Below, in pieces: positions 4,868-33,949 of a stretch of 64,000 nucleotides of DNA; within the stretch, counting starts at the first letter, position 1, and every line of letters begins with the position of its first letter. The position numbers were made by a program, and so were the translations under genes. Source of the stretch: Maribellus sediminis (GTDB taxonomy: Bacteria > Bacteroidota > Bacteroidia > Bacteroidales > Prolixibacteraceae); assembly GCF_011799805.1 (NCBI RefSeq), contig NZ_WXUB01000005.1:124001-188000 (forward strand). The letters are read 5' to 3'. The notes under the pieces are model-generated. The model had not been told where the DNA came from and made no database searches. It saw only the letters and a list, made by a program, of their open reading frames with translations.

Positions 4868-6412
4868 TTAAAACGGAGGAATACCGTGCTTTTTAGCTGG
4901 CATTGAAGCAGTTTTATTCTCAGAAACCTGCAGTGCGTGTAAAATACGTGAGCGTGTTTCACTTGGTTCGATCACTTCGTCGATGTAACCCTGCGCTGCT
5001 GCAACATAAGGATTCGCAAATTTCTCTTTGTATTCCTGAATTTTCTGCTGACGCATTTCCTCAGGATTTTCAGCTTCCGAAATTTCCTTGCGGAAAACAA
5101 TATTGGCGGCACCTTCAGGTCCCATAACAGCAATTTCGGCAGTAGGCCATGCAAACACAAAGTCGGCACGTAAGTGACGCGAGTTCATGGCAATGTAACC
5201 ACCACCGTATGCCTTGCGGATAATTACTGTAACTTTTGGCACAGTAGCTTCACTGTAGGCATAAAGAATTTTTGCTCCGTGACGGATTACTCCGGCATGT
5301 TCTTGGTCAACTCCAGGCAAGTAGCCAGGAAGGTCTTCAAGGGTAACAATCGGAATATTGAATGCATCGCAGTAACGGATAAAACGTGCTGCTTTATCTG
5401 AACTGTCAATATCCAGTACTCCTGCCAATACCATAGGCTGGTTGGCAACAAAGCCTACTGTTTCACCATTCATGCGCCCAAATCCAATAATGATGTTCGG
5501 AGCAAAACGTTCCATAATTTCAAAGAATTCAGAACCATCGGTAATGCTTTTAATAACATCACGCATGTCGTAAGGAATTCTTGGATCAGCCGGAACAATG
5601 TCTTCAACTTTTGCGCCTTTTAGTGGTGCTTTTGGTTTGTGAGCAAGCGCTTTTTTCAGGTTACTACGTGGAATAAAACTGATCAGTGTTTTTATCTGGT
5701 CAAAGCATTCCATTTCGGTTTCAGCATAAAAGTGTGCATTACCGGTAACTTCGGCGTGCACTTTAGCACCACCTAATTCTTCCATTGTAACTTCTTCACC
5801 TAAAACCGATTTTACCACTGATGGTCCGGTGATAAACATTTTCGAAATGTTTTCAACCACGAAAACAAAGTCGGTTAGTGCCGGTGAATAAACAGCGCCA
5901 CCTGCGCAAGGCCCCAATATTACTGAGATTTGTGGAATAACTCCCGAGGCCAGGGTATTACGGAAGAAGATCTCTCCGTAACCTGCAAGCGAGTTAACAC
6001 CTTCCTGAATACGTGCACCACCCGAGTCGTTGATACCAATTAACGGAACTCTCATTTTCAGAGCATGGTCCATAATCTTGGTGATTTTACGGGCATGCAT
6101 CAGTCCAAGCGAACCACCTGCCACGGTAAAGTCCTGGGCAAAAATACAAACCGGTTTGTCGTAAATGGTACCTGTACCGATGATAACACCGTCGCCATGC
6201 AAGGTTTTACCTTCCATGCCAAAATCTTTAGCCGCGTGTTCTACGAACAGGTCGTATTCGTGAAATGAGTTTTTATCGAGCAATGCCAGGATACGTTCCC
6301 TTGCGGTCATTTTCCCCATTGCAACTTGTTTCTCAATGGCTTTATCTCCACCACCTTTTTGTACTTCTTTCTTTCTTTTACGAAGATCGAGTACGTTACT
6401 TCTTAGTGACAT
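4868..6412 (-). CDS. Acyl-CoA carboxylase carboxyltransferase subunit (propionyl/methylmalonyl-CoA type)
   Basis: 514 residues, the usual length for PccB/MmdA. The N-terminal crotonase-like half carries GINDSGGARIQEG and GPCAGGAVYSPALTDF (oxyanion loop). The C-terminal half carries LEDLPGYLPG, YGGGYIAMNSRH and AEIAVMGPEGAANI. It transfers carboxylate between biotin and propionyl-CoA (or the reverse, from methylmalonyl-CoA). Together with the adjacent biotin carrier and the distant meaB, this points to the succinate-propionate pathway. Starts at ATG 6412. Substrate choice among short acyl-CoAs is inferred from similarity of the motifs to Bacteroidota PccB/MmdA proteins. Confidence 0.92.
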   Translation of the reverse strand: MSLRSNVLDLRKRKKEVQKGGGDKAIEKQVAMGKMTARERILALLDKNSFHEYDLFVEHAAKDFGMEGKTLHGDGVIIGTGTIYDKPVCIFAQDFTVAGGSLGLMHARKITKIMDHALKMRVPLIGINDSGGARIQEGVNSLAGYGEIFFRNTLASGVIPQISVILGPCAGGAVYSPALTDFVFVVENISKMFITGPSVVKSVLGEEVTMEELGGAKVHAEVTGNAHFYAETEMECFDQIKTLISFIPRSNLKKALAHKPKAPLKGAKVEDIVPADPRIPYDMRDVIKSITDGSEFFEIMERFAPNIIIGFGRMNGETVGFVANQPMVLAGVLDIDSSDKAARFIRYCDAFNIPIVTLEDLPGYLPGVDQEHAGVIRHGAKILYAYSEATVPKVTVIIRKAYGGGYIAMNSRHLRADFVFAWPTAEIAVMGPEGAANIVFRKEISEAENPEEMRQQKIQEYKEKFANPYVAAAQGYIDEVIEPSETRSRILHALQVSENKTASMPAKKHGIPPF

Positions 6413-6625
6413 AAAGTATTTTTTTAGTTATAAGTTTACCCGTGATAGCTGGGTATTTTAAAATTACGTGCTGGCAAAATTATAATTTTTTCCGGTTGCC
6501 ATTCTTAAATGCATTTATGTGTTACGAATTTTAAGGAACATGGATACATTTCATTCGAATTATAGGATTCTTTGTTTGAAAAGTTCTTCGCAGGAAGTTC
6601 AAATCCAGCACTGACAGAAACCAGA

Positions 6626-23535: not shown

Positions 23536-23594
23536 CATTCTGTAATTTTAACAATCTTTAAGAATTATGACATACGAGTAATTTGTGATGTAAA

Positions 23595-23677
23595 GGATTT
23601 GGGGGAATCCATTCGCAGATTAAAAAAATTGAGATTTACTATAAATGCTGTTTAATTGTTAATTTAAAACTATTTCT
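23595..23677 (+). promoter_or_regulatory. susC leader, copy A (TGGGGG hairpin plus conserved start context)
   Basis: GGATT-TGGGGG-AATCC (23595-23610) forms a small hairpin. It is followed ~35 nt later by GCTGTTTAATTGTTAA and an ACTATTTCT immediately before ATG 23678. The same arrangement recurs at 28643-28716, with altered but still complementary arms, and the start-proximal half recurs before the second susC. Probably part of the mRNA leader; function unknown. Confidence 0.55.
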
Positions 23678-26600
23678 ATGAAAAAATTAGTTTTGTTTTT
23701 TGTATTCCTATGTGTTATAGGTCTCTTTTCTGTTTTGGCACAAGTCAAAACGATAAGCGGGGTTGTAACATCGGGAGCTGACGATTCTCCGATTCCCGGA
23801 GTTTCGGTTATGCTAAAAGGAACAACATTGGGTACAATCACCAATATCGATGGTGAATATATCCTTAAGGTGCCGGAAGATGGTCAGATTCTGGTGGTTT
23901 CCTTTATCGGTATGAAAACTCAGGAAATAGCAATTGATGGTCAGAGCACTGTTAATATTGTTATGGAAGCTGACGTTTTTGGTATCGATGAAGTAGTTGT
24001 TACCGGTGTTGCCGGTGCTACTGAGAAAAAGAAACTTTCGGTTTCAGTTGCTTCGGTTTCAGCCGAAGATCTGGAGAAAGTTCCTGCAGGTTCTGCTGCA
24101 AGTGCTCTTCAGGGTAAAGTAGCCGGTGTTCAGGTTAATTCACTGGGACGTCCGGGTGCAGGTGCTACCATCTTATTGCGTGGTGCTGCCAACTTCTACG
24201 GATCGAACGCTCCGCTGGTAATGATGGATGGAGTATACGTTGAAGGCGGTTTGGCTGACATTAACGTAGACGACATTGCTTCTTTCGAAATTGTAAAAGG
24301 AGCTTCTGCTTCTTCATTATATGGATCGCGCGCAGGTAATGGTGTTATCGTTATTACTTCGAAACGTGGTGCCGTTGGTACGCCTCAGGTAACTGTTCGT
24401 TCAGAGATCGGTTTCTCTCAGGTTACAAATTTTATGGATGTAAACAAGTCGCACCAGTATGTACTGGCTGACGACTGGGAAAACTACAAAGGACAATACA
24501 CCAAATTCGAAGGCATTACTTATCCTGATAATTGGGCAAGCGTATATGCTGCTTCCGGAGATCAGGCTACTTCAGGTGCCCGAATCGAGGAAGAGGATCA
24601 TTATGCCGATAATCCCTTTGGTGTTTACTACGATTTTCAGGATCTGTTCTTTAAAAAAGGAACAAATGCAACTGAATATGTTTCAATCGCGGGCGGTACC
24701 GAAAAGTTTAAAACCTTCTTCTCAACTGAATACAATAAAGTTGACGGTGTTCAGAAGGAAATTGAAGGTTATTCGCGTAATACTTTCCGTTTCAATGTGG
24801 ATTATTACATTAACGACTGGTTGAAATTCAGTGCAAGCAATAACTATATTAAACTTATTGACAACAGTACTTTTGGTGATTTCCGTACGATTACCAGGAT
24901 TTCTCCGGATGCCAACGTAACCTTTCCCAACCCTGACGGACAGCCTTATTGGTACAAAGCTGACCCATGGGACAACGAGGTAAATAACCCGCTTTACAAC
25001 GCTTATTCTATCGATGCTGCTACCAAACAGCAACGTTTCCTGGGAGGTTATAAACTGAATGTGAAATTCACCGACTTCCTGAATTTAGATGCTGAATATT
25101 CATTTGAAAACAACACAAGCCGTTATACCAGTAACTCAAAATACGAAACCTATGTAACTTCAGGTGATGAGATTGGTTTTGGTTACAGTAAAGGTGGTTT
25201 GTCGAAGAACAGCTCTCTTAATGTGGTTCAGAAAGCACAGGCTACGTTGAACTTTGTAAAACAATTTGGTGAACTGGATGTAAAAGCCAAGTTAAGCGGA
25301 CTGGCAGAAGACCGTCGTTATGAGTATTTTAGTGCAAGTGGTAACGACTATTTGTATAAAGATATCGCATCGCTCGATAACTTTGATAAATCAAACATAT
25401 CAGCTAGCTCGAATCAAACGGCTGAACGAGCACAAAACCTGTTTGCCATTGCCGGACTGGTTTATAAAGACCGTTACATTTTCGACGGTTTGTATCGTAA
25501 GGACGGTTCTTCTTTGTTTGGAGAAAATAACCGTTGGGCCGACTACTTCAGGGTATCGGGTGCTTACCGTATTACCCAGGACATCGATATTCCGGGTGTT
25601 CAGGAACTAAAACTGAGTGCTGCACATGGTACTGCAGGGCAGCGTCCGGGATTTACCTGGCAATATGAAATGACCAACCTGAGCGGAGGTTCTTTATCGA
25701 CCAACCGTATTAAAGGTAATCCTGATCTGAAACCATCGAAAACTGCGGAAACAGAGATTGCAATAAGCGCTCAATTCCTCGACAGATTTAGCTTGGATGC
25801 AGCCTATTCGTTCCAGGAATCAACCGACCAGTTTATGCTGGTTAACCTGTTTGCTCCTGCAAATGCAGGTAAAAACCGTCAGTGGCAAAACGTTGGTAAT
25901 CTCGAAACCAACACATTCGAACTTTCGTTGAACTCACAGATTGTTCGTTCGAACGACTGGAACTGGGATCTTACCGTAAACTTCACTAAAACAACTTCTT
26001 TAGTGACTAAACTGAATGCGGCTGAACAGTTTGTAGGTCCTTCGGATAACGTTCTTTGGAAACTGAAAGAAGGTACTGATTTTGGTGCCATGTACGGATA
26101 TAAATTTGTACACGACCTGGAAACCATGGCTAACCAATTGCCTGATGGAAAAACCATTGATGAGTACAGCATTAACAGCGACGGTGTAGTGGTTGAAACA
26201 GCTACCATCGGAACGGTTGACGAAAAAGCAGTATTGGAAGTAGATGAGAACGGTGCTCCGTTGTCGCAGGAAATTGGTAATCAGAATGCCGATTGGTACG
26301 CCGGAATCGTATCGAACCTGTCGTATAAAAACTTCGATTTTTACATGTTGTGGGATTACAAACACGGTGGCGATATTTACAACCGTAACGTACAATGGAA
26401 CGTAATTGCCGGTCGCTCGGCCATTGTTGACCAGGCGGGTAAACCTGAAGACGAAAAGAAAACCACGCTGTACTATCAGTCATTATACCAGGTGAATAAC
26501 AATGTTGATTTCTGGGTTGAAGACGGAACATTTATGAAACTTAGAGAGATTTCTCTTTCGTATACCTTACGTAAAAACCAGCTTGACGGCTTCCTGAACG

Positions 26601-26782
26601 GCTTCTTTAAAGAATTCAAGTTCAGTGCTATCGGAAGAAACGTTCTTACATTTACCAAGTACTCGGGATGGGATCCTGAAGTTCAGGCCTACGATGGCAG
26701 CACTCAGCAATATTTTAGTGCCGACACAGGAGTTTATCCTAACCAGTCATCCTATTCATTTTCAGTACAGTTTAAGTTTTAA
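23678..26782 (+). CDS. SusC/RagA-type TonB-dependent outer-membrane transporter (first pair)
   Basis: 1034 residues. A signal peptide (LVLFFVFLCVIGLFSVLAQ) is followed by a carboxypeptidase-regulatory-like domain (~25-105: GVVTSGADDSPIPGVSVMLK, IDEVVVTG end), a TonB plug (~115-230, ending GSRAGNGVIVITSKRG) and a 22-strand barrel finishing on SYSFSVQFKF. It imports oligosaccharides or other large nutrients through the outer membrane with the SusD lipoprotein encoded 17 bp downstream. No CAZyme, sulfatase, protease or sigma/anti-sigma regulator is adjacent, so the substrate cannot be proposed. Its N-terminal domain is very close to that of the second SusC. Confidence 0.95.
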   Translation: MKKLVLFFVFLCVIGLFSVLAQVKTISGVVTSGADDSPIPGVSVMLKGTTLGTITNIDGEYILKVPEDGQILVVSFIGMKTQEIAIDGQSTVNIVMEADVFGIDEVVVTGVAGATEKKKLSVSVASVSAEDLEKVPAGSAASALQGKVAGVQVNSLGRPGAGATILLRGAANFYGSNAPLVMMDGVYVEGGLADINVDDIASFEIVKGASASSLYGSRAGNGVIVITSKRGAVGTPQVTVRSEIGFSQVTNFMDVNKSHQYVLADDWENYKGQYTKFEGITYPDNWASVYAASGDQATSGARIEEEDHYADNPFGVYYDFQDLFFKKGTNATEYVSIAGGTEKFKTFFSTEYNKVDGVQKEIEGYSRNTFRFNVDYYINDWLKFSASNNYIKLIDNSTFGDFRTITRISPDANVTFPNPDGQPYWYKADPWDNEVNNPLYNAYSIDAATKQQRFLGGYKLNVKFTDFLNLDAEYSFENNTSRYTSNSKYETYVTSGDEIGFGYSKGGLSKNSSLNVVQKAQATLNFVKQFGELDVKAKLSGLAEDRRYEYFSASGNDYLYKDIASLDNFDKSNISASSNQTAERAQNLFAIAGLVYKDRYIFDGLYRKDGSSLFGENNRWADYFRVSGAYRITQDIDIPGVQELKLSAAHGTAGQRPGFTWQYEMTNLSGGSLSTNRIKGNPDLKPSKTAETEIAISAQFLDRFSLDAAYSFQESTDQFMLVNLFAPANAGKNRQWQNVGNLETNTFELSLNSQIVRSNDWNWDLTVNFTKTTSLVTKLNAAEQFVGPSDNVLWKLKEGTDFGAMYGYKFVHDLETMANQLPDGKTIDEYSINSDGVVVETATIGTVDEKAVLEVDENGAPLSQEIGNQNADWYAGIVSNLSYKNFDFYMLWDYKHGGDIYNRNVQWNVIAGRSAIVDQAGKPEDEKKTTLYYQSLYQVNNNVDFWVEDGTFMKLREISLSYTLRKNQLDGFLNGFFKEFKFSAIGRNVLTFTKYSGWDPEVQAYDGSTQQYFSADTGVYPNQSSYSFSVQFKF

Positions 26783-26799: not shown

Positions 26800-28257
26800 A
26801 TGAAATATTTAAGAAATTTATTAATGATAAGCGCTGTACTGCTATTTGCAGTATCGTGTGAAGACTTCTCGCTGGATCTTGAAGTGCCCAACTACGAGCA
26901 TCCAAACGACGATATATTAACTTCCGATCCGGTGGCGTTAACAGCAACAGCCGGAGGTCTTTTGAACAACTGGTATATGACTGTTCATGATTATACCGGC
27001 CCATGTATGATGATGCAAACCATGGCTGACGTTTCAACCTGCTCGTGGGGTAACGTTGGTATGAATGATATGTCAAGTGAACCAAGAAAAGCATGGAATA
27101 ACCTGCCTTCTTATGGTTATCAGGCTTCAACCAATACTTATTTCAATGCATTGTATTCTGTATTGTCGGATGCGAACACCATTGTTGCTGCAGCCGAAAA
27201 AGGTACTGAATTCGATGATCCGAACCTTGTGAAAATGATGGGAAAAGTAGGTCAGGCCTTTTCGATTGGTTACCTCGCACTGGTTTTCGACCGTGTTTGG
27301 TTGTCGGATGAAAGCGGTCCGATAAATGAAGATGGTACTTCAGCTGATTATAAAGAAGCTATGGCTTTTGCACTGCAAAAATTAGACGAGGCAATTGCTC
27401 TTGCTGATGGTGTTACGGTGCCTACTACATGGTTGCCGATTGGAGCAGCCAATACCAGTACATTTAAGCAATTTTTGAATAGTATGGGTGCCCGAATGAT
27501 GGTAAGTAATGTTCGTAACAGTGCACAAAAAAGCGATATCGACTGGGATAAAGTAATAGCTTATACCGACAATGGTGTTACTTCTGACTATACCATATTT
27601 ATGGACGATGTGGTTTGGTACGACCTTGCACCGAAAACTTACCTCGTTTATCCTGGATGGGGACGAACTGATTTGTATGTAATAAACATGATGGATCCGA
27701 ATACTCCGGCCTACTGGCCTGAAGGAGAAACTGTGTTACCCGAATCAACTTCGGCTGATGCTCGTTTGGCTTCGGATTACGGTTACCTGTCGAGCCAGAA
27801 TTTTAACCCGACAAGGGGGACTTATCATTACAGTTCATACCGTTATAAAGCACTCGACTACTACATTTCGGAATGGGTAACCGATGTGGTTGAATTTTCT
27901 GCTTCTGAAAACGAAATGTACATGGCTGAGGCTTACCTTCACAAAAACAATGTAGCCATGGCGGCTGAAATTGTTAATGCAGGAACTCGTGTAACCAGAG
28001 GTGGTTTGGCACCTGTTGCTGCCGATGCTTCTGCAGTTGCTGATGCTATTCATTACGAAAGATGTGTTGAATTTGCCTACACTGGTATGGCGCTTTCTTT
28101 CTTTGAAATGCGCAAGGAAGACCTGCTGCAAAAAGGTACACCATTGCATTTCCCGGTACCGGGTAAAGCTCTGGAAGCAATTCCTGAAGAAAACTACACT
28201 TATGGTGGAACTTCGGGTGTTGCCGGCGAAGACTACTCAACGGGTGGTTGGAGATAA
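26800..28257 (+). CDS. SusD/RagB family nutrient-binding lipoprotein (first pair)
   Basis: 485 residues with lipoprotein signal LLMISAVLLFAVSCEDFS (Cys-20). The all-helical SusD architecture is indicated by repeated TPR-like helices (FNALYSVLSDANTIVAAAE, YKEAMAFALQKLDEAIALA) and the late Met/Ala-rich ENEMYMAEAYLH and YERCVEFAYTGMALSFFEMRKEDLL segments. It acts as the surface lid of the SusC channel and binds ligand. Cotranscribed with the SusC gene. A hairpin with a conserved loop follows ~90 bp downstream. Confidence 0.93.
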   Translation: MKYLRNLLMISAVLLFAVSCEDFSLDLEVPNYEHPNDDILTSDPVALTATAGGLLNNWYMTVHDYTGPCMMMQTMADVSTCSWGNVGMNDMSSEPRKAWNNLPSYGYQASTNTYFNALYSVLSDANTIVAAAEKGTEFDDPNLVKMMGKVGQAFSIGYLALVFDRVWLSDESGPINEDGTSADYKEAMAFALQKLDEAIALADGVTVPTTWLPIGAANTSTFKQFLNSMGARMMVSNVRNSAQKSDIDWDKVIAYTDNGVTSDYTIFMDDVVWYDLAPKTYLVYPGWGRTDLYVINMMDPNTPAYWPEGETVLPESTSADARLASDYGYLSSQNFNPTRGTYHYSSYRYKALDYYISEWVTDVVEFSASENEMYMAEAYLHKNNVAMAAEIVNAGTRVTRGGLAPVAADASAVADAIHYERCVEFAYTGMALSFFEMRKEDLLQKGTPLHFPVPGKALEAIPEENYTYGGTSGVAGEDYSTGGWR

Positions 28258-28343
28258 TACGATACAATTCGGGAGAATCAGAACTAAGAATTCTGGTTCT
28301 CCATTCTTAGCTTAATTTAAGTTTAAGAAAATTTTAAATACTC

Positions 28344-28422
28344 AAAACCGGGAGCTGCTCACTCTACATTTACTCACAATTACCCTTCGTAGAACTTTTT
28401 AGTCTCCCGGTTTTTCTTTTTT
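28344..28422 (+). terminator. Terminator-like hairpin with conserved 42-nt loop, copy 1
   Basis: The arms AAAACCGGGAG (28344-28354) and CTCCCGGTTTT (28404-28414) pair perfectly over 11 bp, and a T-rich tail follows. The long loop contains CTCACTC, TACTCAC and the 16-nt block ATTACCCTTCGTAGAA. The loop (28358-28399) matches that of copy 2 (28807-28848) at 37 of 42 positions, whereas the arms differ. A terminator needs no conserved loop, so an added RNA function is likely. It ends the first susCD unit. Confidence 0.8.
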
Positions 28423-28642
28423 ATGGCTTCCCAAACAGTTAATTCTGCCAGAATTTCGCTTAATTTAAATTTAATCTGAGTATTTTTTGCTGGTGTTATT
28501 TTTTAATCAGAGAGGCACTTGCACTTACTTTGTGTCATTAAATCAGAAAAAATAATTTCAGAATTTTTGGAGTTATGATTTTTTTTTACACATTTGTTAC
28601 TGTTAATTTTTTTAACAAATGTTAGAGGGGTAATATGTGATA

Positions 28643-28716
28643 TTTGATTTGGGGGAATCAAAAACATATCCATAAATTTTTATACGCTGTTTAATTATTA
28701 ATCAAAAACTGTTTCT
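28643..28716 (+). promoter_or_regulatory. susC-type leader, copy B, not followed by susC
   Basis: TTTGATT-TGGGGG-AATCAAA (28643-28662) is a 7-bp hairpin with the same loop as copy A at 23595. Next come GCTGTTTAATTATTAA and ACTGTTTCT directly before ATG 28717. The preceding GGTAATATGTGAT also resembles the corresponding part of copy A (GAGTAATTTGTGAT). The start codon it serves opens a 53-codon ORF instead of a transporter gene. Confidence 0.55.
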
Positions 28717-28878
28717 ATGAGGGGTAGTATATGTAACATCCTTTTATATCCTGTATTTTTTTTCAATTTAAGTTGTGGCAGGTCAAAAGATATTGCCGGG
28801 GGGAATCTCACTCAACATATACTCACGATTACCCTTCGTAGAAATTTATTCCTCCCGGCTTACTTTTTTTTCAATTAG
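28717..28878 (+). CDS. 53-codon ORF between the two SusCD units (relic or leader peptide)
   Basis: It starts at ATG 28717 in a susC-like start context and stops at TAG 28876-28878. The N-terminal part MRGSICNILLYPVFFFNLSC is hydrophobic and signal-like with a Cys at residue 20. The second half is encoded by the conserved hairpin (28795-28871), so its peptide sequence is probably constrained by the RNA rather than by protein function. I recognise no protein family. It may be the residue of a deleted susCD unit, or a translated leader that melts the hairpin when ribosomes pass. Whether it is made is unknown. Confidence 0.35.
   Translation: MRGSICNILLYPVFFFNLSCGRSKDIAGGNLTQHILTITLRRNLFLPAYFFFN
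28795..28871 (+). terminator. Terminator-like hairpin with conserved 42-nt loop, copy 2
   Basis: GCCGGGGGGAAT (28795-28806) pairs with ATTCCTCCCGGC (28848-28859): 12 consecutive pairs including one G-U, followed by a T run. The loop begins CTCACTC and carries TACTCAC and ATTACCCTTCGTAGAA as in copy 1. It lies 110 bp upstream of the second susC, within the small ORF. It may end transcription from leader B or attenuate expression of the second susC. Confidence 0.8.
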
Positions 28879-28944
28879 AAGGGAAAACAAGAATTTTAAA
28901 AAAAACCAGAAAGAAGATCAATTCATACAATGAATAAATTCTAC

Positions 28945-28985
28945 ATTTTTTATAGCTGTTTATTTAATAACTAAAAATTATTTCT
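28945..28985 (+). promoter_or_regulatory. susC start context, copy C
   Basis: GCTGTTTATTTAATAAC, then AATTATTTCT directly before ATG 28986, matches the start-proximal part of leaders A and B. The TGGGGG hairpin is absent. Conservation of this A/U-rich block at all three starts suggests a role in translation initiation. Confidence 0.45.
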
Positions 28986-31900
28986 ATGAAAAAAATTGCG
29001 ATTTTTTTATCGATGCTCCTTTTCATGGGTAATTTGGTTGCTTTTGCTCAGACAAAGACGATAACCGGTACGGTTACATCTTCTGAGGATAACATGCCAA
29101 TTCCCGGGGTTTCGGTTGCGGTGAAAGGAACTACTTTAGGAACGATCACCAACATTGACGGTGTTTATGAACTTAAAGCACCTGAAGACGCTAAAACTTT
29201 GGTATTAAGTTTTGTGGGTATGAAAGCCCAGGAAATTACCATCGGTAGTTCTGCTACCATTGATGTAGTTATGGAACCTGATGTGCTTGGTTTGGATGAG
29301 GTAGTTGTTACTGCACTCGGACAATCACGCAAAAAGAAAAGTCTGGGTTACGCCGCTCAGGACATTCAGGGGGAAGAACTCATGACAGCCCGTGAACCTA
29401 ACGTGGTGAACTCGCTGCAAGGTAAACTTTCTGGTGTACAGATTACCAATTCATCGGGTAACGTTGGTTCAGGTTCGCGTATCATCGTTCGTGGTATGAG
29501 TACCTTAACCGGAAACAACATGCCTCTTTTTGTGGTTGACGGAGTACCGATTATCAACTCTTACTCTGACGTTGGTGCTTACAGTGGTACTGACTACGGT
29601 AACTCATCAGCCGACATCAACCCTGCCGACATTGAAACCATTTCGGTTTTGAAAGGTGCCAACGCTGCTGCACTTTACGGATCGCGCGCCGTAAACGGTG
29701 TTGTACTTATTACCACTAAAAGCGGAAAATCGGGTAAAAAAGGAATTGGCGTTTCCATCCAGCAAAACATGGTATGGTCGAATCCGTTGAAATTGCCTGA
29801 TTTCCAGGATTTGTACGGACAAGGTTACGACGGCGAATTTGAATACGTTGACGGAGACTGGGGTGGTGTAAACGACGGTATTGACGAATCGTGGGGACCA
29901 CGTCTCGATGGTCGTTTGATTCCTCAGTTCGACAGCCCTTACGATCCTATTACTGGTGTTCGTACAGCAACTCCATGGATCGCACATCCTGATAACGTTA
30001 AAAACCTTTTCGATACCGGTTTAAACAGTACAACTTCGGTTGCTGTTAACCGTATGGAAGACGAATACAACTATCGTCTGTCTGTATCACACCAGGATCA
30101 AACTGGTATGATCCCGAATACAGACCAACGTAAAAATACATTCACTTTGAATGCCGGTTTGAACGTAACCGATAAAATTCGCGTTCAGGGTTCGGCTTCG
30201 TACATCCTGACAGAAAGTGACAACATCATGTCATCGGGTTATACTTCAGCCGGTATCTTCCAAAGTACCATGCAGTGGTTTGGCCGTCAGGTTGATACAC
30301 AATGGTTGAAAGATCACTGGCAGGAAATCGATCCTGTGTCGAAACGTAACTACAACTGGAACCACAGTTACCACGATAACCCATACTGGACTTTGAATAA
30401 AAATACCAACTCGCTAAACCGCGAGCGTTTTATGGGTAACGTAAACATTTCTTACGACATTAACGAGTGGATGCAATTGAAAGCTATGGTGGGTACCGAT
30501 GCTTACTCGCAACGCATTAAAGAAGTTCGTGCCAAAGAATCACACGACTGGATGGACGGACGTTTTGATAACTACGAATCAGTACGTAGCGAAACTACTG
30601 CCAATGTTGTATTGACATTTGATAAAAACTTTGGCGACTTTGACTTGTTAGGTACTGTTGGTTCTGAATACAATCACTATGATTATCGCAGTGAAGCAAC
30701 TCATGTTTCAAGCTTAATCATTCCTGACTTGTATTCAGTAAGTAATGCTGCTTCTCCTGCAACAACAGGAATGTCAGAAACTCATACCGAACTTCAGAGT
30801 GTATTTGCAAGTGCAAACATTGGTTATAAGGACATGTTATTTCTTGACTTAACCGCCCGTAACGACTGGTCGTCTACATTACCGGTTAACAACAACTCTT
30901 ATTTCTATCCTTCTGCATCATTGGGTTTCATCTTCACTGAAGCGTTGGGAATGGATTCAGGAATTCTTTCTTATGGTAAACTGAGAGCCAGTTACGCACA
31001 GGTTGGTGGTACTGCAGGAGCTTATGCACTGCAGGGAACTTTTGGTGCATCTGATCCATTCAATGGTCAGCCTTCGTTGACTTATACCAATACTTTGGCA
31101 CCTCTTGGTTTGAAACCACAATCTAAAAATTCATTGGAATTTGGTGGTGAGTTCAAATTCTTTAACAATCGTTTGAGTGTTGATGCAACTTACTATGATG
31201 AAGTAACCGAGAACCAGATCATGAACATCGCGATCTCGAATACTACAGGTTTCAGTACTAAAACCATTAACGCCGGTAAAATTAGAAACAGAGGTTTAGA
31301 GATCACAGTTGGAGCAACTCCGGTTCAAACCAACGATTTCTCGTGGGACATTACAGCCAACTGGGCTACCAACAAAAACACAGTTGAAGAATTAACCGGT
31401 GATCTGGAATACATTAACCTGTACAATGGATCATGGGGTATGACTGTACGTGCTCAGTTAGGAGAAGCTTATGGTCAGATGTGGGGTTACGACATCGTTC
31501 GTGAACACGAGACTGAAGTATATAACTCAAAAGGTGAACTGGCTTATATTAAGTACAGCGGAAAACCTGTTGTTGGTACTAACGGACGTTACATTCGTTC
31601 GCCTAAACAAACTGAGATAGGTAACGTAACTCCCGACTGGTACGGAGGTGTAAACAACGCTTTCCACTACAAAAAATTCAACGTAAGCTTCCTGGTTGAC
31701 TTCCGTTGGGGTGGCGACCAATACTCAATTACCGACTGGTTTGGTAGTTACTCGGGTGTAATGGCAGCTACTGCAGCTATCAACGACAATGGCATGAACG
31801 TTCGTGATGCCGTTGAAGATGGTGGTGGTGTTAAAGTTGACGGTGTTTACGGTAAATTGGTTGATGGTCGTGTTGTGTTAACTGATGCATCAGGTAACGA

Positions 31901-32243
31901 GACATCTACTCCGGTAGCCAACGGATCATATGTTGATGCACAAACTTTCTACGAAACTGATTATTGGGGAAAACCAAGTCTTTCGGTTTACGATGCTGGT
32001 TTTGTAAAACTGCGTGAGGTGATTGTTGGTTATACCTTTAATAATGTTCCTCTTTTGAGTGACATTGGCGTAAGAGACGTAAACCTGTCGTTTGTTGGTC
32101 GTAACCTTTGGATCATTTACGACAATATGCCACATGTTGACCCGGAAAACGGAATTTCTGCCGGTAATACTTCAGTAGGTATGAACTCTACTCCGGTTCC
32201 ATCGGCCAGAACGCTTGGTTTCGACTTAAAAATTAATTTCTAA
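28986..32243 (+). CDS. SusC/RagA-type TonB-dependent outer-membrane transporter (second pair)
   Basis: 1085 residues. Signal peptide IFLSMLLFMGNLVAFAQ is followed by the regulatory-like domain (GTVTSSEDNMPIPGVSVAVK to LDEVVVTALG), a plug with the family motif GSRAVNGVVLITTKSGKSG near 240, and a barrel ending TLGFDLKINF. It shares the N-terminal domain closely with the first SusC (KGTTLGTITNIDG in both) but diverges in the barrel, so it is a paralogue likely taking a different ligand. Paired with the SusD-like gene 26 bp downstream. No enzyme or regulator gene is attached to this locus. Confidence 0.95.
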   Translation: MKKIAIFLSMLLFMGNLVAFAQTKTITGTVTSSEDNMPIPGVSVAVKGTTLGTITNIDGVYELKAPEDAKTLVLSFVGMKAQEITIGSSATIDVVMEPDVLGLDEVVVTALGQSRKKKSLGYAAQDIQGEELMTAREPNVVNSLQGKLSGVQITNSSGNVGSGSRIIVRGMSTLTGNNMPLFVVDGVPIINSYSDVGAYSGTDYGNSSADINPADIETISVLKGANAAALYGSRAVNGVVLITTKSGKSGKKGIGVSIQQNMVWSNPLKLPDFQDLYGQGYDGEFEYVDGDWGGVNDGIDESWGPRLDGRLIPQFDSPYDPITGVRTATPWIAHPDNVKNLFDTGLNSTTSVAVNRMEDEYNYRLSVSHQDQTGMIPNTDQRKNTFTLNAGLNVTDKIRVQGSASYILTESDNIMSSGYTSAGIFQSTMQWFGRQVDTQWLKDHWQEIDPVSKRNYNWNHSYHDNPYWTLNKNTNSLNRERFMGNVNISYDINEWMQLKAMVGTDAYSQRIKEVRAKESHDWMDGRFDNYESVRSETTANVVLTFDKNFGDFDLLGTVGSEYNHYDYRSEATHVSSLIIPDLYSVSNAASPATTGMSETHTELQSVFASANIGYKDMLFLDLTARNDWSSTLPVNNNSYFYPSASLGFIFTEALGMDSGILSYGKLRASYAQVGGTAGAYALQGTFGASDPFNGQPSLTYTNTLAPLGLKPQSKNSLEFGGEFKFFNNRLSVDATYYDEVTENQIMNIAISNTTGFSTKTINAGKIRNRGLEITVGATPVQTNDFSWDITANWATNKNTVEELTGDLEYINLYNGSWGMTVRAQLGEAYGQMWGYDIVREHETEVYNSKGELAYIKYSGKPVVGTNGRYIRSPKQTEIGNVTPDWYGGVNNAFHYKKFNVSFLVDFRWGGDQYSITDWFGSYSGVMAATAAINDNGMNVRDAVEDGGGVKVDGVYGKLVDGRVVLTDASGNETSTPVANGSYVDAQTFYETDYWGKPSLSVYDAGFVKLREVIVGYTFNNVPLLSDIGVRDVNLSFVGRNLWIIYDNMPHVDPENGISAGNTSVGMNSTPVPSARTLGFDLKINF

Positions 32244-32269
32244 TAAGGATGGTTTAACTTAAAAATTCA

Positions 32270-33949
32270 ATGAACATGAAAAATATATTGAAAGATTTAA
32301 AATTAGTCCTGTTTACCGTCCTGATTTTTATGGCAGGATCGTGTACCGACGACTTTGAGGAGATGAACACCGACCCGAACTCTCCGGTTGATGTTCCCGC
32401 ATTAAATATTTTTACCCATGCATTAGAGTCGCACATCAGCTACGAGATGGGTGGATGGATTCAGCACACATACCTTGGACCATGGTCGCAACAGTGGACC
32501 AAAGTACAGTACATTGATGAGGATAAATATCAGCCACGTAGCCTGGATGGAGATTTCCACGGACGTTATACCAATGCTTTACAAGATTTGGCTATCATCC
32601 TTGATAAAACAAATCCAGCCAATGAAGACGGTGGAGATCCTGCACTTTATGCTGCAGCAAAAATCTGGAAAGTGCTGATTTTTGATTTTCTGACTGACCT
32701 GTGGGGAGATGTTCCTTACAGCGAAGCAAACATGGGATTGGTTTCAGATAACGTAACTCCGGTTTACGACACTCAGGCAGATATCTATGCAGGTTTGTTG
32801 GCCGAATTGGATGAAGCTAACGATCTGTTGACTTCTTCTTTGTTAAATTTCGGAAGCGGTGATATCCTTTTCGGAGGTGATCCAATGGCCTGGAAAAAAT
32901 TCGGAAACTCATTGCGTTTGAGAATTCTGAACCGTGCCGCTGGTACGCCATGGGATTTTACTTATGATATGGTTGGCGGAACTACCGTTACTACTACAGC
33001 CGGTGCAGCAGCGATGAGCGACGCCGATGCTAAGATTGCTGAAGTATTGGGTAACCCTTCAAAATACCCGATCTTCACGAGCAATGACGATAATGCAATG
33101 CTGGCTTATCCCGGATTACCTTACCGTAACCCGATTTACAATACCTTGTTTTCAAGGACTGACCAGGGAATCAGCCAAACAATGGTTGACTTCCTGAATG
33201 CCAGAACAGACCCAAGGGTACATGTTTATGCCCAGCCTATTCCTAAAAGTGTAGGAACTGATGCTGTTGTGTATAACGGTCACCAAAACGGTTTGGCACA
33301 CGCCGCTGCAACTTTCCAGAACATCTCGTTATTGGGAACTGCAATTGCTTATACTGAAACGGCTCCATTGTATGTGCTTTGTTTGGATGAAGTTGAATTG
33401 ATTCAGGCTGAATATTACCTGCGTAAAAACGACGAAACCAATGCGAAGGCGCATTACGAAGCCGGTATCAAAGCCAGTATGGACCGTTGGGGATGTGCTG
33501 ACGGCGCAACCGTAACTCCATCGAATAAAGCTGGTGATGACTTCTCTGCATTTTCAGTTACTGTTGATCAGGCTGCTTACCTGGCTGATCCGTTAGTAGC
33601 ATTTGGCGGAACCAAAGGCGAAAAATTCCAGAAAATTCTGGAACAAAAGTGGGCAGCTATGTTTGGTCAGGGTGTACAAGCCTGGATTGAAGTTCGTCGT
33701 ACCGGTTTCCCGGCTCGTGCTTTCGAATACGAACTGGAAGGTGCTTACTATCCTAATCTGGGTATGCCAACACGATTGACTTATTCAACTGTTGAAGATA
33801 CTTACAACGGAGTCAACCTCGACGCAGCTAAAGAACGTCAGGGCGTTCAGGATCTGAACGAAGGATTGTTCGGAAGCTGGGTATGGTGGAACACCAGGAG
33901 AAATCCGATTCCTACGGAAATCGATCCTCCTGCTGCTGACAAGCAATAA
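32270..33949 (+). CDS. SusD/RagB family lipoprotein (second pair)
   Basis: 559 residues. The N-terminus shows a lipoprotein signal (LVLFTVLIFMAGSCTDDF; Cys ~25) and the typical FEEMNTDPNSPVDVP motif of the SusD-like_2 branch. Later landmarks are AKIWKVLIFDFLTDLWGDVPYSEA, FGNSLRLRILNR, EVELIQAEYYLRKND and the C-terminal EQKWAAMFGQGVQAWIEVRRTGFP. ATG 32270 versus ATG 32276 cannot be separated. Partner of the second SusC; ligand unknown. Confidence 0.93.
   Translation: MNMKNILKDLKLVLFTVLIFMAGSCTDDFEEMNTDPNSPVDVPALNIFTHALESHISYEMGGWIQHTYLGPWSQQWTKVQYIDEDKYQPRSLDGDFHGRYTNALQDLAIILDKTNPANEDGGDPALYAAAKIWKVLIFDFLTDLWGDVPYSEANMGLVSDNVTPVYDTQADIYAGLLAELDEANDLLTSSLLNFGSGDILFGGDPMAWKKFGNSLRLRILNRAAGTPWDFTYDMVGGTTVTTTAGAAAMSDADAKIAEVLGNPSKYPIFTSNDDNAMLAYPGLPYRNPIYNTLFSRTDQGISQTMVDFLNARTDPRVHVYAQPIPKSVGTDAVVYNGHQNGLAHAAATFQNISLLGTAIAYTETAPLYVLCLDEVELIQAEYYLRKNDETNAKAHYEAGIKASMDRWGCADGATVTPSNKAGDDFSAFSVTVDQAAYLADPLVAFGGTKGEKFQKILEQKWAAMFGQGVQAWIEVRRTGFPARAFEYELEGAYYPNLGMPTRLTYSTVEDTYNGVNLDAAKERQGVQDLNEGLFGSWVWWNTRRNPIPTEIDPPAADKQ

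Follow-up and report, generated by a model that had tools for sequence, protein, structure and literature searches.

The 64,000-nucleotide (nt) stretch of the Maribellus sediminis genome analysed here (contig NZ_WXUB01000005.1; hereafter the window) carries two SusCD gene units, and with them two copies of a terminator-like hairpin with a shared loop: element 1 behind unit 1 and element 2 in the leader of susC2 (Table 1). Both hairpins are present as given in the preliminary description of this DNA, with predicted folding energies of -21.6 kcal/mol (element 1) and -23.4 kcal/mol (element 2), and we confirmed that their loops (28358-28399 and 28807-28848) are identical at 37 of 42 positions. 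The 16-nt block reported to be common to the two loops, ATTACCCTTCGTAGAA, is exact in both, and these are its only occurrences in the genome. Element 1 begins 87 nt past the end of the gene for the unit 1 partner protein, and 115 nt separate the end of element 2 from the susC2 start codon. The flanking DNA of the elements shares only short matches, the best of 21 nt at 90% identity in the common susC-type start region, which excludes a simple tandem duplication. The stems had been described as unrelated in sequence; instead, both arms carry a CCGGG(A/G)G core and belong to one family.

Table 1. Features of the two SusCD units and their leaders (positions in the window; P values for loop pairing are against shuffled loops)
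Feature	Position	Strand	Remarks
Leader segment 1, unit 1 (GAGTAATTTGTGATGTAAA)	23576..23594	+	Pairing with element 1 loop: segment, p = 0.033; unit 1 start region, p = 0.007
Leader hairpin GGATT-TGGGGG-AATCC, unit 1	23595..23610	+	
susC1	23678..26782	+	TonB-dependent receptor plug and CarboxypepD_reg-like domain (Pfam PF07715, PF13715)
Unit 1 partner protein	26800..28257	+	SusD by position alone; no Pfam match
Hairpin element 1, type A (3' of unit 1)	28344..28422	+	CCGGGAG stem, 42-nt loop, T-run; intrinsic-terminator-like
Loop block ATTACCCTTCGTAGAA, element 1	28379..28394	+	Invariant in 27 distinct copies except one A/G position
Leader segment 1, unit 2 (GGGGTAATATGTGATAT)	28627..28643	+	Complementary to the middle of both loops; -21.5 and -21.6 kcal/mol; p = 0.003
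Leader hairpin TTTGATT-TGGGGG-AATCAAA, unit 2	28643..28662	+	
Short-ORF start region TTTCTATGAGGGGTAGTATATGTA, unit 2	28712..28735	+	Two-part antisense partner of both loops; -28.2 kcal/mol; p = 0.003
Short upstream open reading frame (ORF) through type B hairpin	28717..28878	+	53 codons and stop; start 37 codons before loop block
Hairpin element 2, type B (susC2 leader)	28795..28871	+	GCCGGGGGG stem, loop, T-rich tail
Loop block ATTACCCTTCGTAGAA, element 2	28828..28843	+	Invariant in 27 distinct copies except one A/G position
susC2 start region TTTCTATGAAAAAA	28981..28994	+	TTCTATGAA pairs with loop TTCGTAGAA, 9 bp including one G-U; read from sequence
susC2	28986..32243	+	Pfam PF13715, PF00593, PF07715; conserved signal peptide, exchanged body
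susD2	32270..33949	+	Pfam PF12771, PF12741

The element recurs in related genomes. We used a set of 61 genomes, 37 of the genus (Draconibacterium/Maribellus) and 24 others of the order, and found the 16-mer, with at most one mismatch, in 22 of them. Two of these (genomes G001 and G012) lack the hairpin around the block and were excluded; the other 20, which have the hairpin, are all in the genus and include Draconibacterium orientale, D. mangrovi, D. sediminis, D. aestuarii and the Maribellus strains CM-23 and YY47. Five further one-mismatch matches off the locus (in G000, G033, G004, G014 and G008), of which the one in G000 was read, are uncounted. From 15-20 kb fetched around the copies in 19 relatives, together with the window, we obtained 29 copies, 27 of them distinct; related species are counted separately in all tallies of copies and leaders. 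The two copies of the window score 89 bits (E 3.5e-19) and 83 bits (E 1.6e-17) in their own genome with a covariance model built from 27 copies that include both, and the family is also found in the 19 other genomes. At E ≤ 0.05, the covariance model (R1) has matches in 26 of the 37 genomes of the genus. Strong copies (at least 69.8 bits) number 29 in 20 of the 37, with one to three per genome and a single SusCD locus in each, and G031 and G011 have one diverged copy each, at 36 bits.

Weaker candidates were set aside. The weak matches within the genus at L201-L204 were ordinary hairpins on reading, and four more (second hits in G033, G004, G032 and G013) were left unread. Ten genomes of the order outside the genus, from a sample of 393, gave scores of 24-32 bits; all ten were read and were ordinary GC-rich hairpins or other sequence lacking the loop block. 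Exact matches to the 16-mer in other phyla had no stem arms in the displayed flanks and were treated as chance. Recurrence in 20 genomes, together with the dissimilar flanks, rules out chance similarity or a local duplication as the origin of the family. The possibility, raised beforehand, that the loop occurs only at this locus was borne out to the extent that the element occupies one locus per genome in one genus, but it is conserved across species and is no local duplication.

An alignment of the copies, with 85 columns, consists of the stem CCGGGAGG/CCTCCCGG, an inner helix TCTAC/GTAGA, the loop and a T-rich tail. Paired bases fill 94.4% of the stem cells; among the 10 stem pairs, three have two-sided changes and five never vary over the 27 distinct copies. 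The inner helix is 96.3% paired, with no two-sided change. The stem thus varies little, and the idea of a conserved loop on freely varying stems does not hold. By sequence, all 27 distinct copies have the GC-rich stem of an intrinsic terminator and most have the T-rich tail, which is weaker in window element 2, L091, L099:5705 and L101 (L numbers denote stretches from relatives, with positions after the colon). A search of the whole window against Rfam 15 at the gathering score gave no match, in agreement with the proposal that the element lies outside known RNA families, and for window positions 28300-29000 and for L094, L098 and L105, a permissive E-value brought up unrelated families alone, all below threshold; the match to ncr1175 (28.5 bits against 60) overlaps the L094 element. 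We found no description of the element in the literature searched, nor its loop sequence in any paper searched. A new cis-regulatory or 3'-end RNA element tied to nutrient-uptake operons had been suggested, and this is supported by recurrence next to other susCD genes, where the 29 copies found in 20 genomes lie either in leaders or at 3' ends. The hairpins are almost certainly members of a conserved RNA element family, apparently undescribed.

The copies occupy two positions. Type A copies, 5 of 29, lie at the 3' end of a gene unit (window element 1, L094:6813, L096:18948, L097:7463 and L105:7291). The other 24, of type B, lie in a susC leader, with the loop block 95-295 nt before the susC start region. 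Upstream of type B, the leader has a segment like GGGTAATTGTGAGTA, then a hairpin with a UGGGGG loop and, 57-68 nt on, a start, mostly TTTCTATGAAGGGG. The UGGGGG hairpin has an invariant loop core, TTGGGGGA, and is found about 60-75 nt upstream of both susC and short-ORF starts at the locus. Among 36 distinct leaders, two-sided changes are seen in six of its seven pairs; there are 46 two-sided cells, as opposed to 15.9 in shuffles, and the covariation is 0.570, as opposed to 0.200. That this hairpin is itself an RNA element is therefore strongly supported.

The UGGGGG hairpin is distributed more widely than the terminator element. Its leader pattern is present in 27 of the 37 genomes of the genus; among the 393 sampled genomes of the order, the window's own genome alone has it. 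G019, G021, G012 and G025 (the last two incomplete) have the leader without a strong match to the terminator element; in G019 and G021 the locus with this leader was found and the terminator element was not. GTAAT precedes the hairpin in 17 of the 37 genomes, 16 of them with the terminator element, while four genomes with the element lack this form. The exception among the 17 is G001 (86% complete), where the leader segment GGGTAAT is present with no recognisable element. At position 750 of the reversed stretch L263 (contig C183 of this genome), the leader reads GGGTAATTAGTGAAAT, and a partly complementary TTTCACTTTTTTTACCC lies in the following short ORF. Between the type B hairpin and susC, L091 and L105 each have an additional UGGGGG hairpin (CTACT/AGTAG; L091:7394 and L105:8322 on the strand of the element), which suggests that some susC units have retained their own leader.

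The loop reads, from 5' to 3', CTACAT, TACTCACAATTACCC and CCCTTCGTAGAA, and its parts are complementary to the leader. We scored the pairing of each loop against 300 dinucleotide-shuffled loops and ranked leader sites among the 4910-6576 overlapping windows scanned per locus. In 21 of the 24 type B copies, the loop is antisense to the short-ORF start of the leader (TTTCTATGAAGGG) at p ≤ 0.01. The 3' part of the loop, CCCTTCGTAGAA, and TTCTATGAAGGG within the leader start are complementary, one of the pairs being G-U. Pairing extends in several leaders to the other side of the loop, where CTACAT or CTGCAT matches the ATGTAG that follows TTTCTATGAAGGGG; in the window, ACATATAC pairs with GTATATGT. 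The leader start ranks first in 11 of the 24 copies and among the top 12 in 22, and that of the window is first of the 6576 windows scanned between 20001 and 40000. TTTCTATGAAGGGG occurs in 18 of the 61 genomes, all 18 with the element, and 21 of its 22 occurrences are in these leaders. The two element genomes that lack it are G033 and the window's own, which has TTTCTATGAGGGG at 28712. The middle of the loop matches the upstream segment, GGGTAATTGTGAGTA, less strongly (p ≤ 0.05 in 15 of the 24); a comparison of loops with this segment across loci was uninformative because related loci share sequence.

Type A loops also match type B starts (p = 0.003 in the window, L094 and L096; p = 0.020 in L105). 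The loop of window element 1 matches both the start and the segment of unit 2 at p = 0.003, besides the susC start and segment of its own unit (Table 1). The five susC starts that were scored gave p = 0.003-0.037, with short pairing of -9.4 to -11.5 kcal/mol. One of the roles proposed for the loop in the preliminary description was that of a small RNA (sRNA) target; a role in RNA pairing is in keeping with our results, but in the reverse sense, since the loop looks antisense and the leaders look like targets.

One pair of genomes shows a change on both sides. The locus of G031 and G011 has a single unit, made up of a leader, susC, susD and two further genes, followed by a type A hairpin. Its loop (TTATAGTTTCCC; reads TTATAGTTTCCCTTCATAGATAA) and its leader segment (GGGGGAACTATAA; GGGGGAACTATAAAC) are both unlike the rest, yet they are complementary to each other (p = 0.003 in each genome; ranks 15 and 7 of 19816 windows). 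The loop also matches the susC start (p = 0.023 and 0.017), with ranks of just 2843 and 1136. Taken together, the complementarity and its conservation make a functional pairing of loop and leader probable. Separately, the 238-aa gene that precedes the type A hairpin in these genomes has a start (TATGAAGGGA; L209 and L211) perfectly complementary to the loop over 10 nt; this may be chance, as it ranks only 114 and 178 of 19816 windows.

An open frame also runs through nearly all type B hairpins. With the frame of the loop block required to be open from at least 12 codons upstream to past the 3' stem arm, 23 of the 24 type B copies pass and only one of the five type A copies. In 19 of the 24 type B copies, the block is preceded by an ATG or GTG at a distance of 37-38 codons; the type A copies all lack an ATG in the frame of the block. 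In 10 of the 24 (window, L091, both copies of L093, L097, two of three of L098, both of L099, and L105), the ORF across the hairpin begins at the leader start itself; from this start, L097:7970 crosses the hairpin in a different frame than the others. In the remaining leaders with a separate first ORF, a second start nearer the hairpin mostly opens the crossing frame. An open frame across the hairpin is conserved more than any single peptide or start.

By sequence, this is the layout of a leader-ORF attenuator: a short ORF overlapping a predicted terminator ahead of structural genes. We propose that type B is an attenuator and antisense RNA element controlling the SusCD leaders in cis, and possibly in trans, a reading to which we give a probability of about 0.4. 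The order would be promoter, segment, UGGGGG hairpin, short-ORF start, terminator hairpin and susCD. Ribosomes translating into the hairpin would hold the terminator open, and susCD would be transcribed; pairing of a loop with the leader start would lower translation of the leader, so that the terminator could form and susCD would be off. A leader already terminated could supply the pairing loop, and so could a type A hairpin at the end of a neighbouring unit; such a 3'-end copy would be capable of pairing with leaders in cis or in trans. The family, the positions of its members, the complementarity with its conservation and the open frame come directly from the computations; pairing in the cell, termination as the controlled step, its sign and the action between units are what we infer. 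We favour this sign because the open frame is conserved. Also compatible with the attenuator is the predicted helix between leader start and loop, the minimum free energy structure in six of the nine leaders folded (of 24; see below). Leaders like that of the window would fit directly, as the paired start opens the crossing ORF itself. In attenuators of the trp/erm type, a short ORF and alternative structures likewise precede the structural genes together with a terminator; here we noticed no run of control codons, and it is the terminator loop itself that the leader start would pair with. Plasmid pT181 uses antisense-induced attenuation with a separate antisense gene. The likeness lies in a loop-type antisense RNA that may set terminator formation, and the difference in that the antisense would here be the terminator hairpin. 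A terminator whose loop is antisense to the leader that it guards would be a compact RNA switch uniting attenuation and antisense control.

Several observations weigh against an attenuator of this kind. The test for an open frame is lenient, as the +1 frame passes in 11 of the 24 type B copies (the third frame in none). The leader start opens the crossing ORF in only the 10 leaders listed above, and two of these, L097:7970 and L099:5705, lack the match between start and loop (p = 0.106 and 0.807; ranks 320 and 2676); L093:13292 has a weaker one (p = 0.020). In 13 leaders of the Draconibacterium type, the paired start opens an ORF of 19-32 codons that ends 190-322 nt before the block, and in L098:9434 a separate ORF of 16 codons, all 14 such ORFs stopping 62-322 nt before the block; in most Draconibacterium leaders, therefore, the link between pairing and termination would be indirect. 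The match to segment 1 is non-significant in 9 of the 24. The type A loop of L097:7463 fails to match the type B start (p = 0.179), while it matches the type B leader segment (p = 0.003) and the start (p = 0.037) and segment (p = 0.017) of its own unit 1; both this loop and that of L105:7291 have better-scoring partners elsewhere in their loci. Pairing by the loop inside a closed terminator would form a pseudoknot, and our folds were computed without pseudoknots. Finally, the 16-nt block is nearly invariant, and the compensatory case of G031 and G011 comes from two close relatives and counts as one event.

Another function would be that of an sRNA, or of a 3'- or 5'-untranslated region (UTR) acting as antisense, in which the hairpin of a terminated leader or of a 3' end blocks translation at susC or short-ORF starts with no attenuation. 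This seems somewhat unlikely. The simplest layout, in G031 and G011, has the hairpin only behind the unit, with a loop that matches the segment and susC start of that unit, and window element 1 matches the susC1 start in the same manner. There are precedents for both modes. The FopS sRNAs of Bacteroides thetaiotaomicron pair close to the start codon of susC and so repress its translation, an effect that RbpB antagonises; they have 12-15 paralogous copies per genome, an R1' seed and an RbpB-bound RNA of 65-70 nt, and one member derives from a 3' end (PMC11697453). The icaR 3'-UTR of Staphylococcus aureus pairs with its own 5'-UTR through a 7-nt C-rich anti-Shine-Dalgarno motif, leading to RNase III cleavage and a translational block (PMC3868564). 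Our element resembles FopS as an RNA of Bacteroidota with predicted antisense complementarity to start regions of translation on susC mRNAs, but it has one to three copies at one locus, with the seed in a terminator loop that lies mostly inside the leader of its putative target. With icaR, it shares a 3'-end motif complementary to the leader and start region of its own unit, which was found by computation in G031 and G011, window element 1 and L097:7463; it differs in its use of a terminator loop, in its longer, multi-part complementarity and in the second version located in the leader. A pure sRNA would have no need for 24 of 29 copies to lie between leader and susC, 23 of them with an open frame, and the matches to susC starts are short.

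The opposite sign is also conceivable; we regard it as unlikely, though both it and the pure antisense role compete seriously with the favoured reading. Here, pairing of start and loop would act as an antiterminator favouring susCD transcription, and ribosomes loading at the start would break the pairing and let the terminator form. Such pairing could form before the 3' stem arm is made. We folded 9 of the 24 leaders, and in six, including that of the window, the helix between leader start and loop belongs to the minimum free energy structure (not so in L105, L093:13292 and L094); for the window, this structure has -39.6 kcal/mol, as opposed to -32.7 kcal/mol with the start region kept unpaired. 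Nor does this sign require the paired start to open the crossing ORF, so the Draconibacterium leaders fit as well. However, the open frame kept through the type B hairpin suggests that ribosomes open the terminator, and type A copies have no such leader close upstream.

That the loop is conserved as part of a leader peptide, for coding ..LTLHLLTITLRR.., is very unlikely. The open frame with its ATG or GTG and the variable loop positions, mostly third codon positions, would be expected of a peptide, but in the type A copies the 16-nt block is kept even at its silent positions and with no ATG in frame, and the G031 and G011 loops differ. The type A copies and the other frame of L097:7970 weaken a purely coding explanation.

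Behind the type B leaders, the SusC proteins differ in their bodies, with a median identity of 36%, as opposed to 83% over the first 24 residues (22 of the 24 loci, 231 pairs). Thus, the leader, the start and the signal peptide form a constant expression site before variable cassettes. Behind this site with its signal peptide (MKKIAIFLSILLFMGN..), the SusCD bodies (28986-33949 in the window; loci L091-L109) are swapped between species. Each locus has one to three SusCD units linked to an element; L098 has three tandem units with an element for each, and L093 and L099 also have tandem cassettes with elements. Such exchange might point to a DNA homology or recombination tract in which the hairpin is incidental, but the terminator tail, the two-sided stem changes and the complementarity to the leader are features of an RNA, making this highly improbable, although no search for recombinases or breakpoints was made. 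An attenuator and antisense element at such a site could serve in RNA-based exclusion: the 3'-end hairpin of the expressed unit and terminated leaders would act in trans through the shared loop on the leaders of neighbouring units, so that one outer-membrane uptake system would silence the others at the expression site, a scheme that we consider doubtful. SusCD systems are main nutrient-import machines of Bacteroidota, and the choice among them after initiation has so far barely been studied (FopS/RbpB). The position of the element in the constant part of a locus with SusCD bodies swapped between species makes the post-transcriptional choice of transporter directly testable in culturable marine bacteria.

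Upstream, the locus usually lies 3' of a gene for a HAD hydrolase, which Pfam confirms in the window. Its motif is present in 14 of the 20 stretches, and L091 has other genes upstream; the median identity of this neighbour is 64% (13 loci, 78 pairs). DNA inversion between TTCTATGAAGGGG and CCCTTCGTAGAA was considered as an idea, and no search for it was made. At L093:6637 and L098:3650 (Maribellus-type), an extra leader with a short MKG/MRG ORF, lacking such a hairpin of its own, lies just before the type B leader. Many of the leaders, that of the window (28602-28616, GTTAATTTTTTTAAC) and those of many relatives (..GTTAAAAAAATTAAC..), are preceded by an AT-rich palindrome that lies just 3' of a promoter-like stretch, ..ATTTGTAA..; possibly, it is an operator or the 5' end of the leader.
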